From the NCBI RefSeq assembly GCF_900102015.1, contig NZ_FNAT01000003.1:372001-436000 (forward strand): a stretch of DNA of 64,000 nt, given 5' to 3'. The first letter of the stretch is position 1. Each line of letters opens with the position of its first letter. Made by a program: the position numbers and the translations under genes. This DNA comes from Limimaricola pyoseonensis (GTDB lineage Bacteria > Pseudomonadota > Alphaproteobacteria > Rhodobacterales > Rhodobacteraceae). A model generated the notes under the pieces. The model was not told where the DNA came from and searched no databases. It was given only the letters and a program-made list of their open reading frames with translations. Below, one piece after another: positions 12,233 to 44,154 of the stretch.

Positions 12233-13518
12233 CCGTTCTGCCGCAGCACGTGCCCGGCGAGATAGAGCGAGCCGCAGATCAGGATCCGCGCCTGCGGCGC
12301 CTGCGCCGTGATCGCGCGGATCGCCTCCTCGACGCCCGCCGCGGCGCTGGCGGCGGCGAAGCCGGCCTCGCGGGCGATTCGCGTGGTTTCGGCGGCGGGC
12401 ACGGTGTTGGCTTCGCCGGGGATCGACACCGCCTGCAGGCTCTCGGCCATGCCGGAGAGCGGGCGCAGGTAGCCCGCGATGTCCTTGGTGTTGAGCATGC
12501 CGCAGACCAGATGCGTCGGGCGGCGGGGCAGGGTGGCCAGCGTCTCGGCCAGCATCGCGCCGGCCGCCGGGTTGTGGCCGCCATCGAGCCAGAGCTCGGC
12601 CTCGGGCGCGGCCTCGACCAGCGGGCCGCGCGTCAGGCGCTGCATCCGGGCCGGCCATTCGGCGCGGGTCACCGCCGCCTCGCAGGCCGCCTCGTCGCGG
12701 CCGAGCGCCCGCAGCGCCGCGATGGCGGTGCCGGCGTTGATCACTTGGTGCGGGCCCCTGAGATTGGGCATCGGCAGGTCGAGCAGGCCGCGCTCGTCCT
12801 GGTAGACCAGCCGGCCGGCCTCGGTGGTGACGTGCCAGTGCTGGCCATGCGCCAGGAGCGGCACGCCGAGCCGCGCGGCCTTGGCCTCGATCACCTCGAG
12901 CGCCGCCTCGTGCTGCGGCGCGACCACGCAAGGGGTGCCGCGCTTGAGAATGCCGGCCTTCTCGCCCGCGATCTCCTCCAGCGTCTCGCCCAGATATTGC
13001 TGGTGGTCGAGATCGACGGGGGTGATCACGGTCAGCGCCGGGCGCGCGACCACGTTGGTCGCATCCAGCCGGCCGCCGAGGCCGGTCTCCAGAAGCGTCC
13101 ACTCGGCCGGGGTCTCGGCGAAGGCCAGCAGCGCCGCTGCCGTGGTGATCTCGAAATAGGTGATCGCCTCGGGGCCGTTGGCGGCATGGGTGCGGTCCAG
13201 GAGGGCCGTGAGGTCGGGCTCGGAGATCAGCTCGCCCGCCAGCCGGATGCGCTCGTGGAAGCGCGCGAGGTGCGGCGAGGTGTAGGCGTGGACGCGGTCA
13301 CCCCCGGCCTCGAGCCCGGCGCGGATCATCGCCTGGGTCGAGCCCTTGCCGTTGGTGCCGGCGAGGTGGATCACCGGCGGCAGCCGTTCTTCGGGGTGGC
13401 CCAGCGCCGCGAGCAGCCGCCAGACCCTGTCGAGCGTCAGGTCGATGACCTTCGGGTGCAGCGTCATCATCCGCGCGAGGATCGCGTCGGACCCGGCGTC
13501 CGCCGCTGCCGGCGTCAT
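12229..13518 (-). CDS. folC: Folylpolyglutamate synthase / dihydrofolate synthase
   Basis: 429 residues. Adds glutamate to dihydropteroate and to folates in the cytoplasm. The ATP-binding loop HLAGTNGKGST (residues 51-61), TSPHLARFHERIR, TLLETGLGGRLDATN, the TPVDLDHQQYLGETLEEIAGEKAGI block and LDGGHNPAAG are all diagnostic. The ATG overlaps the accD stop (ATGA). The order accD-folC is conserved in many proteobacteria. Confidence 0.95.
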   Translation of the reverse strand: MTPAAADAGSDAILARMMTLHPKVIDLTLDRVWRLLAALGHPEERLPPVIHLAGTNGKGSTQAMIRAGLEAGGDRVHAYTSPHLARFHERIRLAGELISEPDLTALLDRTHAANGPEAITYFEITTAAALLAFAETPAEWTLLETGLGGRLDATNVVARPALTVITPVDLDHQQYLGETLEEIAGEKAGILKRGTPCVVAPQHEAALEVIEAKAARLGVPLLAHGQHWHVTTEAGRLVYQDERGLLDLPMPNLRGPHQVINAGTAIAALRALGRDEAACEAAVTRAEWPARMQRLTRGPLVEAAPEAELWLDGGHNPAAGAMLAETLATLPRRPTHLVCGMLNTKDIAGYLRPLSGMAESLQAVSIPGEANTVPAAETTRIAREAGFAAASAAAGVEEAIRAITAQAPQARILICGSLYLAGHVLRQNG

Positions 13519-39482: not shown

Positions 39483-40580
39483 TCAGGACTGGCCGGCCTT
39501 CTGCTTGGCCTTCTCGGCCTCGGCCTGCGCCGAGGCGCCCACGTCCTTCTTCTGGGCCTCGGACTTCGCGGTGTCGGCCACGTGGTGGGCGGCGTCGCGG
39601 GCGCGGCCCTGCACGTCGGTCGCGGTGTCCTTCAGGTCCTCGCGGACATGCCGCGCCAGATCCTCGGCCTGATGCCGGGCATCCTCGGCGGTGGTCTTCG
39701 CCACGTCGGCCAGCCGCGCGCGCTCCTCGTTGTAGACGCGGTAGGCCTCGTCCATCAGATCGTCGCGGTAGCTGCCGAAATAGGCGTCCTCGCGCTGGGT
39801 GCGCGGCAGCATCATGCCCACCGCGGCGCCGGCGGCCAGCGCCAGGAGCCCGCCCAGAATCGGCTGGTCCTGGTACATGCCCGCCGCGCTGTCGCGACCC
39901 TTGCGGGCATAGTACTCGGCCTTCACCTGCGCCTCGTAGGCGCGGGTGCGCGCGGCGATCACGCGCTTGCGGCCCTCGTCGGACATGTTCTGCGTGCCGT
40001 CGGAGAGGCGCTCGCGCATCTGCCGGGCCGAGGCGCCCCACTCGGTGCCGCGGCGGCGCATCTCCTCGCGGTAACGGCCCATGCGGCCCTTGGCGCCGGC
40101 CATCTTGCCGCCGACCTTGCCGCGCATCCGCGCGAAGCGGCCGCGCTCTTCGTGCCAGGGCGAATCCTCGTCGATGTCGCCGGGCACCGGGCCGCGCGGC
40201 TCGTCCATCTTGCCGGTGCCGTATTTGCGCGACAGGTAGGGGTCGGCGCCGAGCCGGCCCGAGCGGGCGTAGTCGCGCTGGCCGCGATAGTCGACCTCGC
40301 CGGCATAGCGCTCGTCGTCGCCGCCGCCGCGGGCGTTGGAGACCGCGAGCCAGGCGAGGCCCGCGCCGACCAGCGCGATCGGCACCGGGTTGCGCTGCAC
40401 GGTGCGCGAGACGGTCTGGCCGATGTCGGAGGCGTTGTCGCTCAGGCTGTCGGTCACCGACCGCATCAGCCCGTCGAGCGACAGGCGCTCCTGAAGATCG
40501 TCGATCGTGCGCTGCAGTTCCGAGCGCTCGGTCTCGATCTCGCGCTCGATCTCTTCGGGGGAACGGGTGGTGTCAGTCAT
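39483..40580 (-). CDS. DUF3618 membrane-anchored protein
   Basis: 365 residues. Residues 7-55 form a DUF3618 region (RSPEEIEREIETERSELQ...LQERLS), then a membrane span near 65-83 (PIALVGAGLAWLAVSNA). A long basic segment follows (RGKVGGKMAGAKGRMGRY), then a second hydrophobic stretch (PILGGLLALAAGAAVGMMLP). The C-terminal 90 residues are a charged amphipathic helix rich in Ala, Asp, Lys and His (EDARHQAEDLARHVRED), reminiscent of LEA-like or apolipoprotein-like helices. Role unknown; last gene of a three-gene operon with an 8-base overlap. Confidence 0.8.
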   Translation of the reverse strand: MTDTTRSPEEIEREIETERSELQRTIDDLQERLSLDGLMRSVTDSLSDNASDIGQTVSRTVQRNPVPIALVGAGLAWLAVSNARGGGDDERYAGEVDYRGQRDYARSGRLGADPYLSRKYGTGKMDEPRGPVPGDIDEDSPWHEERGRFARMRGKVGGKMAGAKGRMGRYREEMRRRGTEWGASARQMRERLSDGTQNMSDEGRKRVIAARTRAYEAQVKAEYYARKGRDSAAGMYQDQPILGGLLALAAGAAVGMMLPRTQREDAYFGSYRDDLMDEAYRVYNEERARLADVAKTTAEDARHQAEDLARHVREDLKDTATDVQGRARDAAHHVADTAKSEAQKKDVGASAQAEAEKAKQKAGQS

Positions 40581-41010
40581 TGATGGCTCCTTTGACGGCA
40601 GCGGCGTCCTTGCGGATCGACTCGGCGCTGCGCTTGGGTGCGTTGGTCACGGCCTTGATGCGGTTCAGTCCGACCTTCACGAGGATCGCGGCGATCACGA
40701 GGATCACGCCGCCGACGATCAGGGCGGAGAGGCCCGCGCCGAGGCCGGCTTCGGCAAGCCAGGCCACGAAGGCGGCGGCGAGAACGTCGAGCGCGGTCAG
40801 GCTGAGGACCACGGCGGCGACCACGAGGCCGATGCCCATGCCGGCGCGCGACAGCGCGCGCTGGGCCTCGGCCTTGGCGAGGTCGGCCTCCTTGCGCACG
40901 AGGCCGCTCACATGGCTCATCGCCTCGGAGAGCAGGGCGGACATGGACTTCGCCTCGCCGCGCGGTGCGGCGTTGCGCGCATCCTCGAAACGGGGGTCGG
41001 TCTGGCTCAT
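40573..41010 (-). CDS. YqjE-like (phage-holin superfamily) inner-membrane protein
   Basis: 145 residues. A cytoplasmic helix (MSALLSEAMSHVSGLVRKEADLAKAEAQRAL) precedes two membrane spans (GIGLVVAAVVLSLTALDVL and LSALIVGGVILVIAAILV) and a basic tail. This is the layout of E. coli YqjE, grouped with holin superfamily III/VI, although such chromosomal genes are not lysis genes. It overlaps the genes on both sides (ATGA at its start, 8 bases at its end). Confidence 0.82.
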   Translation of the reverse strand: MSQTDPRFEDARNAAPRGEAKSMSALLSEAMSHVSGLVRKEADLAKAEAQRALSRAGMGIGLVVAAVVLSLTALDVLAAAFVAWLAEAGLGAGLSALIVGGVILVIAAILVKVGLNRIKAVTNAPKRSAESIRKDAAAVKGAIND

Positions 41011-41756
41011 TTCTTCACGGCCCCGGTCTCGCCCGGCTGCGGCTTGCCGGGAATTTCGGGCTTGCTGTCGGGCTGCTCGATGCCGCTCGGCGCGCCGGTG
41101 GTGGTGCCCGCCCCGGAGGTCGTGCCGGTCGAGGCGCCGGGCTGCGGCGCGGCGGTCGACTGCGTGGTGCGCGGCGCCGCCGGGCTCGGGGCGTTCGAGG
41201 TCATTGGCTCGGAGGTCGGCACCGGGCGGTCGATGCGGTCGTCGGCATCGTAGTCGTCGGGCATGGTGTCGGGGTGGTCGTGCCCGCCGACGCCGTGGCC
41301 GTCCGAGGCGTAGCCGATGCGGGGCTCGCCATGCCGGGCCGAGGACTTCATGAAGCGCGCCGCGGCAAAGCCCAGAAGCGCCGCGCCGCCGAGGAACAGC
41401 GCCGGGTTGCGGCGGGCATAGTCGTTCGCCGCGTAGGCCATGTCGTCGAGATCCATCGAGCGCATGTTGTCGGCGGTGTCGGCCACCGCGTCGGCGAGGC
41501 GGGCGAAGACCCGCTCCTGCGGCGAGCCGTCATGCAGGTCGTCGGCCGCCTTGCGCAGCGCCTCGGCGATCTTCGACGTCTCGTTGGCGGCCTCGTCCTT
41601 GTAGCCGCGGCCGTATTCGTAGGCACGCTCGCGCGCCTCTTCCGCCATCTCGCGGGCCCGTTCGCGGGCGGTGTCCGCGAATTCGGCCGCGCCGCTCTTG
41701 GCATCGGCGGCCGCCTGCTTCGCACGCTGGTCCAGCGTTTCGCCTGTATTGGCCAT
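41007..41756 (-). CDS. ElaB/YqjD-like C-tail-anchored protein with extended tail
   Basis: 249 residues. An amphipathic Ala/Glu/Arg helix region (AKQAAADAKSGAAEFADTARERAREMAEEA) leads to YARRNPALFLGGAALLGFAAARFMKSS, the RNP-plus-membrane-span ending of the ElaB/YqjD/YgaM family that anchors ribosomes or shapes stress physiology in E. coli. Unlike those, about 100 further residues follow, rich in Pro, Thr, Ser and Gly. The ATG at 41756 follows AAGGAGG; the longer open frame upstream only runs antisense through the tandem repeat and aminotransferase gene. First gene of the operon. Confidence 0.8.
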   Translation of the reverse strand: MANTGETLDQRAKQAAADAKSGAAEFADTARERAREMAEEARERAYEYGRGYKDEAANETSKIAEALRKAADDLHDGSPQERVFARLADAVADTADNMRSMDLDDMAYAANDYARRNPALFLGGAALLGFAAARFMKSSARHGEPRIGYASDGHGVGGHDHPDTMPDDYDADDRIDRPVPTSEPMTSNAPSPAAPRTTQSTAAPQPGASTGTTSGAGTTTGAPSGIEQPDSKPEIPGKPQPGETGAVKK

Positions 41757-41835
41757 GTCGACCTCCTTGATTCGCGTTGGCCGGCGGTCGGCGCGGGGAG
41801 GGGCGCCGGGCTCCGTCGGTCTGTCTCGACTCCAG

Positions 41836-41860
41836 AACGACGGGCCGGGACAAAAGTTTC
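41836..41860 (-). promoter_or_regulatory. EcfG-like promoter for the YqjD-like operon
   Basis: On the minus strand GAAAC, 16 bases, CGTT: one mismatch to GGAAC-N16-CGTT and the same spacing as the element before dps. Expected transcription start near 41829, giving a leader of about 70 bases. Confidence 0.4.
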
Positions 41861-41904
41861 GCGATGCGGGTGGTCGGTGCGGCGCGGGACCAAGCGGCAC
41901 CAAG

Positions 41905-41942
41905 GGGTGGAAACGCGAAACGCCGCCCCGGGTGGGGCGGCG
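41905..41942 (-). terminator. Terminator of the sseA-aminotransferase operon
   Basis: On the minus strand ACGCCGCCCC, a four-base loop and GGGGCGGCGT are followed by TTCGCGTTTCC. It lies beyond the tandem repeat, so the repeat would be transcribed as the 3' untranslated region of the aminotransferase mRNA. Confidence 0.65.
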
Positions 41943-41970
41943 TCCTGCGTTCCGGCCGGCCTGAAGCGGT

Positions 41971-42090
41971 CCGTGGCGGTCCGTGGCGGCCCGTGGCGGC
42001 CCGTGGCGGCCCGTGGCGGCCCGTGGCGGCCCGTGGCGGCCCGTGGCGGCCCGTGGCGGCCCGTGGCGGCCCGTGGCAGCCTGCGGCGGC
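41971..42090. repeat. 10-bp tandem repeat, 12 units
   Basis: Unit CCGTGGCGGC. Nine consecutive perfect copies run from 41981 to 42070; flanking units are CCGTGGCGGT (41971), CCGTGGCAGC (42071) and CTGCGGCGGC (42081). The array directly abuts the aminotransferase stop codon (42092). Period 10 is not a multiple of three, so copy-number changes would alter any reading frame through it. Likely a slippage-prone VNTR. Confidence 0.95.
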
Positions 42091-42091
42091 G

Positions 42092-43276
42092 TCAGATCCC
42101 GGCGGCGATGATGGCGCGGGCCAGCACCGGCACCGTCTTGGCGTTCAGCCCGGCGATGTTCATCCGGCTGTCGCCGACCATGTAGATGCCGTGATCGTCG
42201 CGCAGCCGCGCCACCTGCTCGGGGCTGGCGCCGAGCCGGGAGAACATGCCGCGATGCTCGGCGAGAAAGTCGAACCGGTCGGAATTGCTCAGCTGGCGCA
42301 GCTCGGCGGCGAGCTGCTCGCGCAGCTTCAGCATGCCCTCGCGCACCTCCTCGAGCTCGGCCTGCCAGTCGGCGCGCAGCTCGGGGTCGGTCAGGATCGT
42401 GCTCACCACCCGGGCGCCGTGATCGGGCGGGAAGGAGTAGTTCTGCCGGTTGAGATAGGCGAGGTTGTCCTGCGCCTTGCGCGCCTGCGGCACGTCGCGG
42501 GCGATCGCCATCAGGATGCCGGTGCGCTCGCGGTAGATGCCGAAGTTCTTCGAGCAGCTGGCCGCGATTAGCACCTCGTCGAGGCTGGAGGCGATGAGGC
42601 GGGTGGCCGCCGCGTCGGCGTCGAGCCCGTCGCCGAAGCCCTGATAGGCGATGTCGATCATCGGCACGAGCTGGCGCGCCTTGAGCGTGGCGACGATCTC
42701 GTCCCACTGCTCGGCGGTCGGGTTGGCGCCGGTGGGGTTGTGGCAGCAGCCATGCAGCAGCACCACGTCGCCCGGCTGCGCCTCGCCCAGATCGGCCATC
42801 ATGCCGGCCATGTCGACCGCGCGGCTCGCCGGGTCGAAATAGCGGTAGCTGCGGGTTCTGGCGTCGAGATGCTTGAGGATCGACAGGTGGTTCGGCCAGG
42901 TCGGGTCGGAGACCCAGATCGTGGCCTCGGGCGTGGTGCGGCCGATCAGCTCGAAGGCCTGGCGCACCGCGCCGGTGCCGCCGGGCGTGGCGATCGCGGC
43001 GATGCGGTCGCGCGGCAGCGTGTCGGCCAGAACGAGGTCGATCATCGCGTCGGAGAAGGCCGGATCGCCGGCGAGCGCGGTGTAGCTCTTGGTGGTCTCC
43101 CGCTCCAGCAGGCGCGCCTCGGCGGCCTTGACCGCGCGCATGATGGGGGTGCGGCCCTCGGCGTCCTTGTAGACGCCGACGCCGAGGTCGATCTTGTCGT
43201 CGCGCGGATCGGCCTTGTAGGCGCCCATCAGCGCCAGGATCTTGTCGGCCGGCTGGTCGGTGAGATGCTCGAACAT
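42092..43276 (-). CDS. Aspartate/aromatic aminotransferase (class I)
   Basis: 394 residues. PLP lysine is Lys243 in AASCSKNFGIYRERTG; CCHNPTGANP, SYRYFDPAS and DIAYQGFGDGL are typical of the AspC/TyrB subgroup. It moves amino groups between aspartate or aromatic amino acids and 2-oxoglutarate in the cytoplasm. The ATG is two bases after the sseA stop. Since aspartate aminotransferases can also transaminate cysteine to 3-mercaptopyruvate, the substrate of SseA, the pairing is suggestive. A tandem repeat lies directly after its stop. Confidence 0.92.
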   Translation of the reverse strand: MFEHLTDQPADKILALMGAYKADPRDDKIDLGVGVYKDAEGRTPIMRAVKAAEARLLERETTKSYTALAGDPAFSDAMIDLVLADTLPRDRIAAIATPGGTGAVRQAFELIGRTTPEATIWVSDPTWPNHLSILKHLDARTRSYRYFDPASRAVDMAGMMADLGEAQPGDVVLLHGCCHNPTGANPTAEQWDEIVATLKARQLVPMIDIAYQGFGDGLDADAAATRLIASSLDEVLIAASCSKNFGIYRERTGILMAIARDVPQARKAQDNLAYLNRQNYSFPPDHGARVVSTILTDPELRADWQAELEEVREGMLKLREQLAAELRQLSNSDRFDFLAEHRGMFSRLGASPEQVARLRDDHGIYMVGDSRMNIAGLNAKTVPVLARAIIAAGI

Positions 43277-43278
43277 GT

Positions 43279-44154
43279 CTATCCTTGGGAATTGTCTCTG
43301 GCGGGGCCGGTTTCCACCGGCAGGTCGGGGAACATGCCCCATTCGGACCACGAGCCGTCATAGAGCCGGTGGTCGGTCTTGCCGATCCGCTCGAGCGCCA
43401 GCGACAGCACCGCCGCCGTGACGCCGGAGCCGCAGCTGGTGATGACGGGGCGGTCGAGGTCGATCTCCGCCGCCTCGAAGGCGGCGCGGATCTCGCCCTC
43501 GTCGCGCAGCGTGCCGTCGGGGCGCAGCAGCTCGCGGAAGAACAGGTTGCGGGCGCCGGGGATGTGGCCCGAGCGCAGGCCGGGGCGCGGCTCGGGGGCG
43601 CGGCCCTCGAAGCGCTCGGGCGCGCGGGCGTCGACGATCTGGTCGCTGCCGAGCTTGACCGCGGCGGCCACCTCGGTGGCGTCGGCGGCCATGCCGCGCA
43701 CCGGGGCCACGGTGATGTGGCGGTCGCGCAGCAGGGTGGGGCGGTCGGTCAGCGGGCGGCCCTCGGCGCGCCATTTCGGCAGCCCGCCATCGAGCACCGC
43801 GACGTCGCGCTTGCCCATGGCGCGGAACATCCACCAGACCCGCGCCGCCGAGAACAGCCCGGCGCCGTCATAGACCACCACCTGGTGGCCGTCGCCCACG
43901 CCCATCGCCCGCAGCCGCGACACGAACTTCTCGGGCGGCGGCAGCATGTGCGGCAGGTCGCTGCGATGGTCGGCGATCTCGTCGATGTCGAAGAAGCGGG
44001 CGCCGGGAATGTGGGCATCCTCGTGCTCGGCGCGGGCGTCGCGGCCGGCATCGGGCAGGTACCACGAGGCGTCGAGGATGCGCAGATCGGGATCCGTCAG
44101 ACGCTCGGCCAGCCAGCGGGTCGAGACCAGCGTGCGGGGATCGTCGACGGTCAT
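43279..44154 (-). CDS. sseA: 3-mercaptopyruvate sulfurtransferase
   Basis: 291 residues, two rhodanese domains. The catalytic cysteine is Cys241 in the loop CGSGVTA, the signature that separates mercaptopyruvate sulfurtransferases from thiosulfate sulfurtransferases (CRKGVTA). HIPGARFFDIDEIAD and GHIPGARNLFF mark the two domains. It transfers sulfur from 3-mercaptopyruvate to thiols or cyanide, giving persulfides and H2S. First gene of the pair with the aminotransferase. Confidence 0.93.
   Translation of the reverse strand: MTVDDPRTLVSTRWLAERLTDPDLRILDASWYLPDAGRDARAEHEDAHIPGARFFDIDEIADHRSDLPHMLPPPEKFVSRLRAMGVGDGHQVVVYDGAGLFSAARVWWMFRAMGKRDVAVLDGGLPKWRAEGRPLTDRPTLLRDRHITVAPVRGMAADATEVAAAVKLGSDQIVDARAPERFEGRAPEPRPGLRSGHIPGARNLFFRELLRPDGTLRDEGEIRAAFEAAEIDLDRPVITSCGSGVTAAVLSLALERIGKTDHRLYDGSWSEWGMFPDLPVETGPARDNSQG

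Follow-up and report, generated by a model that had tools for sequence, protein, structure and literature searches.

A decameric minisatellite directly behind an aminotransferase stop codon in Limimaricola pyoseonensis

Introduction

Minisatellites are tandem arrays with a unit of about 10-100 bp, as an excerpt of PMC6868369 defines them. Among the closest described systems are those of MLVA panel 1 in Brucella, which have units of more than 9 bp according to excerpted text of PMC1513380. Slipped-strand mispairing is given as a usual explanation for bacterial repeats in a portion of PMC5179023. In addition, extracts from PMC4060949 state that repeats with units of at least 4 bp are generally not suppressed in prokaryotes, and name as a possible cause that mismatch repair handles loops of more than three bases poorly.

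Here, we describe a tandem array of twelve 10-bp units located between an aminotransferase stop codon and a conserved hairpin in Limimaricola pyoseonensis. Judged by titles and the beginnings of abstracts, nothing on this array was found in the literature on tandem repeats (in 3' UTRs, in intergenic regions and in bacterial genomes) or on VNTRs of Rhodobacteraceae.

Array structure and genomic context

The array occupies positions 41971-42090 of the window, the whole 64,000-nucleotide stretch of DNA that was analysed, as delimited by TRF and the register of the units. It is read on the minus strand, where the unit is GCCGCCACGG in the mRNA sense (plus strand CCGTGGCGGC). Nine perfect copies of CCGTGGCGGC span 41981-42070 and are flanked by variant copies at 41971-41980 (one mismatch), 42071-42080 (one mismatch) and 42081-42090 (two mismatches); the nine perfect and three near-perfect copies counted in the initial annotation are thus exact in this register. 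The TRF call itself runs from 41966 to 42090 (period 10, 12.5 copies, 95% matches). With a score of 215, it is at the top of the 21 TRF rows in the window, the runner-up scoring 68 with 2.6 copies, which agrees with the earlier view that no other long tandem repeat is present there. By comparison, the best TRF score across 100 simulations (order-4 Markov, trained on the window minus the array) was 106. CCGTGGCGGC occurs 11 times in the 64-kb window, nine of them inside the array; shuffled sequence gives 1.4 on average. With head-to-tail, near-identical units of at least 10 bp and a score beyond chance for the composition, the array is a real, ordinary bacterial minisatellite, new in sequence.

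The gene preceding the array in the mRNA sense (42092-43276, minus strand) encodes a class I/II aminotransferase of the aromatic amino acid transaminase subfamily (NF006719, PF00155). Its TGA stop codon, at 42094-42092, is followed by a single base and then by the array from 42090. Hence, the array does lie directly after a stop codon, as first described, in the minus-strand sense and with one base in between. Further upstream, the stop codon of an sseA-like 3-mercaptopyruvate sulfurtransferase gene (43279-44154, minus strand; NF008557, rhodanese domains) is located 2 nt before the aminotransferase ATG. On the other side, a spacer of 25 nt (41946-41970, minus strand) separates the array from a GC-rich terminator-like hairpin (41918-41945, minus strand) followed by TTT, which is found at the corresponding place in all eight Limimaricola genomes compared. 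The stem, the short T-run and the conservation are the grounds for the label "terminator", whereas a stricter consensus scan of 41700-42300, requiring at least five T, called no site. The array thus ends, as proposed, before a hairpin with terminator features, although not before a terminator recognized by the stricter scan. Because of the gene order and the conserved downstream hairpin, the assignment of the array to the 3' untranslated part of the sseA-aminotransferase unit is supported as a predicted placement. In an RNA fold model, the hairpin is intact and folded separately from the array. The first ten bases of the spacer, which have four mismatches to the unit consensus and three to the adjacent variant copy (by eye), look like a decayed thirteenth unit.

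The next downstream gene (MANTGET..., 41007-41756, minus strand) gave family matches that all fell short of the curated thresholds. The seven congeners share an identical ribosome-binding site and start with it. Upstream of this gene, a block GCGAAACTTTTG...GTTCTG (41833-41862, minus strand) is nearly conserved in congeners, one base being different in congener L015. In the window, this region reads GAAAC-N16-CGTT, which we take to resemble an alternative-sigma promoter and regard as a candidate. Three consecutive genes occupy 39483-41756 on the minus strand, corresponding to no family match above cut-off, Phage_holin_3_6 (PF07332) and DUF3618.

Comparison with congeners and distribution of the unit

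A search with the aminotransferase returned 546 relatives and the best 80 loci were kept, seven of which belong to Limimaricola (86-88% identity). The hairpin finder gave a candidate in 29 of the 80 loci, including the seven congeners; the remaining 51 had no candidate and were left out at this point. In all seven congeners, 22-27 nt separate the stop codon from the hairpin and the array is absent; in the window, stop codon and hairpin are 146 nt apart. What remains between the array and the hairpin (25 nt) is about as long as the entire stop-to-hairpin spacer of a congener. The sequence of the congener spacers is poorly conserved and that of the hairpin is conserved; an ancestral decamer seed was not recognisable in the seven congeners. 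Because all seven are array-free and about one congener spacer length still precedes the hairpin, the array would most simply have been added in this lineage, right after the stop codon. It is present in one of eight Limimaricola species, each represented by one genome. The label "VNTR", whose defining property is a copy number that differs between strains of one species, is plausible but putative.

The G+C content of the window is 0.715, compared with 0.679-0.693 in the orthologous 7-kb loci of the seven congeners, the lengths of the stretches being different.

In its own genome, the exact doubled unit is confined to this array. No doubled unit was found in any of the seven congeners with one mismatch allowed, and the exact doubled unit turned up as one match (L121) in a single genome among 393 others sampled from the family. 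The single unit occurs 156 times in the own genome (89+67 on both strands, nine in the array) against 162 times (83+79) for its reversed control; totals are 76-131 in the seven congeners, where the control gives 116-165. Set against this control, single units are slightly more frequent in the own genome, where 147 lie outside the array against 162 control hits, than in the congeners. The search for the unit elsewhere in the genome, as the initial annotation had advised, did not reveal further arrays of it. A dispersed repeat family of the REP, MIRU or STAR kind was rejected, the doubled unit being restricted to the array and the single unit not exceeding its control. A mobile or viral origin was also rejected: three exact units had no match in viral contigs, and the 441-bp surroundings of the array had no match in plasmid records at E up to 1e-5.

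Origin of the array

We consider it highly likely that the array is a lineage-specific minisatellite, made by slippage in a weakly constrained 3' spacer and probably neutral. In this scenario, chance would have duplicated a GC-rich decamer of the untranslated stretch that runs from the aminotransferase stop codon to the hairpin, and the duplicate would then have expanded to about twelve units, either by replication slippage or by unequal recombination between copies. The array may persist because the 3' spacer is little constrained, the hairpin and the upstream region of the next gene remaining intact. Slippage is favoured because nine identical interior units are flanked by variant edges, as predicted by homogenisation of the core, and the existence of arrays of unrelated units in the same genome supports the same reading. 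From these observations, we infer the slippage mechanism, near-neutrality and a likely variation of copy number between strains. On the other hand, two other noncoding arrays are also positioned at stop codons (see below); simple slippage at random would give no particular reason to expect this, although the shortness of intergenic spacers softens the surprise. The lack of a recognisable seed in the congeners and the slightly higher relative frequency of the single unit in the own genome also weigh against this reading.

A regulatory 3' UTR element is an unlikely alternative, in which a long imperfect hairpin would slow 3'-to-5' decay or tune termination, copy number acting as a rheostat. The mRNA strand of the array can indeed form one long interrupted hairpin (-71.4 kcal/mol), and its position between the stop codon and the terminator-like hairpin would suit such a role. 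However, this stability is that of shuffled sequences (mean -71.51 kcal/mol, z 0.03), 91 of 200 dinucleotide shuffles being at least as stable. Folding the array together with the hairpin gave a z of -1.19, and folding the plus strand as DNA a z of 0.84. Furthermore, the conserved hairpin already supplies an end, and the array is missing at the same place in the seven congeners. Overall, the idea that the array alters mRNA stability or termination found no support in the model, where the hairpin stays intact beside an array no more stable than its shuffles. A structured regulatory RNA in the 3' UTR was rejected on the same z of 0.03, on the absence from congeners and on a search of Rfam with 41500-42400, which gave no match at E up to 1.

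The position at a stop codon could also be more than incidental. We sampled 1,162,325 bp of the own genome including the window, less than one third of the whole, for arrays with at least four copies and at least 90% matches. Those passing the cut-offs were the window array, a 26-mer in L125, a 9-mer in L149 and the arrays of L133, L176 and L183, the latter three being inside genes according to a crude gene caller only. This caller picks antisense frames in places, for instance at 39.5-41.3 kb and 43.3-44.2 kb of the window and in L149, where the 9-mer was counted as noncoding after reading the frames, against the coding label of the caller. Conversely, a 27-mer in L131 and a 12-mer in L166 were counted as coding, since the long frames containing them look like low-complexity stretches of protein; caller-coded arrays with less than 90% matches were left out of the tally.

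The 26-bp array (L125:12521-12682, G000:C12:72521-72682) is located between a DUF1491 gene and a convergent gene. Its well-matched part (12564-12682, 93%) begins 44 nt after the DUF1491 stop codon, and a weaker overlapping row (84%) reaches 12521, 1 nt past that stop. The unit repeats the 3' end of the convergent gene including its stop codon, which at 12665-12667 is inside the array. The corresponding spacer in L142, L143, L144, L146 and L147 (five of the seven congeners, by eye) holds no comparable array; in L146, the 3' end of the convergent gene is duplicated at this locus. The 9-bp array, 9.4 perfect copies of GAACCCCAC (L149:15940-16024, G000:C2), is found between two same-strand genes. 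Its start falls within the TGA that closes a cupin gene, and it takes up most of the space before the following gene. Like the window array, both are noncoding and touch or overlap a stop codon, but their units are unrelated to its unit. Stop-codon contact is therefore observed for three of three noncoding arrays (at least four copies and 90% matches) in about 1.16 Mb.

These arrays are suggestive, and three are far too few to conclude from. The case is weak because intergenic spacers are short, the gene caller is crude, one of the three contacts is loose and less than one third of the genome was sampled. It is quite improbable that noncoding minisatellites of this species arise or persist preferentially at stop codons, in which case repeat arrays would be built as extensions of 3' UTRs by some process tied to the ends of genes, for example conflict between replication and transcription, or selection that permits expansion nowhere else. 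Should repeats of this lineage really cluster at stop codons, this would be a testable observation on the birth and tolerance of slippage arrays in compact genomes. In a 400-kb sample of congener G005, the only noncoding array of at least three copies was a TAG x10 run. TRF on the 80 aminotransferase loci gave two further arrays of at least four copies, a 12-mer (L043) and a 27-bp x4.3 minisatellite in Salipiger aestuarii (L072:3033-3148). The latter resembles the window array in being GC-rich, about 120 bp long, from the same family and at most 430 bp from the end of the orthologous aminotransferase gene. In contrast, it is intergenic and lies upstream of genes (by eye) and not at a stop codon, its unit being unrelated in length and sequence; it represents, in another genus, an array away from such a codon.

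An assembly artefact, by which the assembler would have produced the array or distorted its copy number, is very unlikely. Reads of common lengths can span an array of about 125 bp. The present one is anchored by variant edge units and lies on a 464-kb contig whose nearer end is about 50 kb away. Nevertheless, the assembly is in draft form, with 20 contigs, and tandem repeats can be collapsed or miscounted, as a part of PMC6868369 points out, so the exact number of units may be wrong.

The 10-bp period had also suggested a phased protein-binding or bent segment, since it is near one helical turn, and DNA in which GGCC-type motifs recur at about the helical repeat is reported to be curved in the presence of divalent cations. 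This reading is highly improbable. A-tract curvature is not expected because the 120-bp array has no AA, TT, AT or TA step, and a period of 10.0 bp does not keep step with a helical repeat of about 10.5 bp, about 17 degrees being lost per unit. Besides, no enrichment of the unit is seen in the rest of the genome, and the congeners have no array at this place.

Finally, a coding repeat is scarcely credible: plus-strand open frames at 40965-42185 and 41777-42571 do run through the array, as expected from a decamer without stops that leaves all frames open, but neither has a Pfam match, both overlap genes of the minus strand that are backed by family matches or by conserved starts, and congeners lack the array.

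Comparison with known systems

Read as a slippage-made minisatellite, the array matters little as it stands, being a possible marker for strain typing. It also provides a natural case in which the interval from a stop codon to a genus-conserved hairpin has grown by 120 bp. The Brucella MLVA loci are markers by virtue of copy-number variation between strains, as excerpts of PMC1513380 indicate, whereas the Limimaricola array is known from one genome. In its architecture, however, it is similar to the panel-1 minisatellites of Brucella as these excerpts present them: units of roughly 10 bp or longer, nearly identical and arranged head to tail at a single place.
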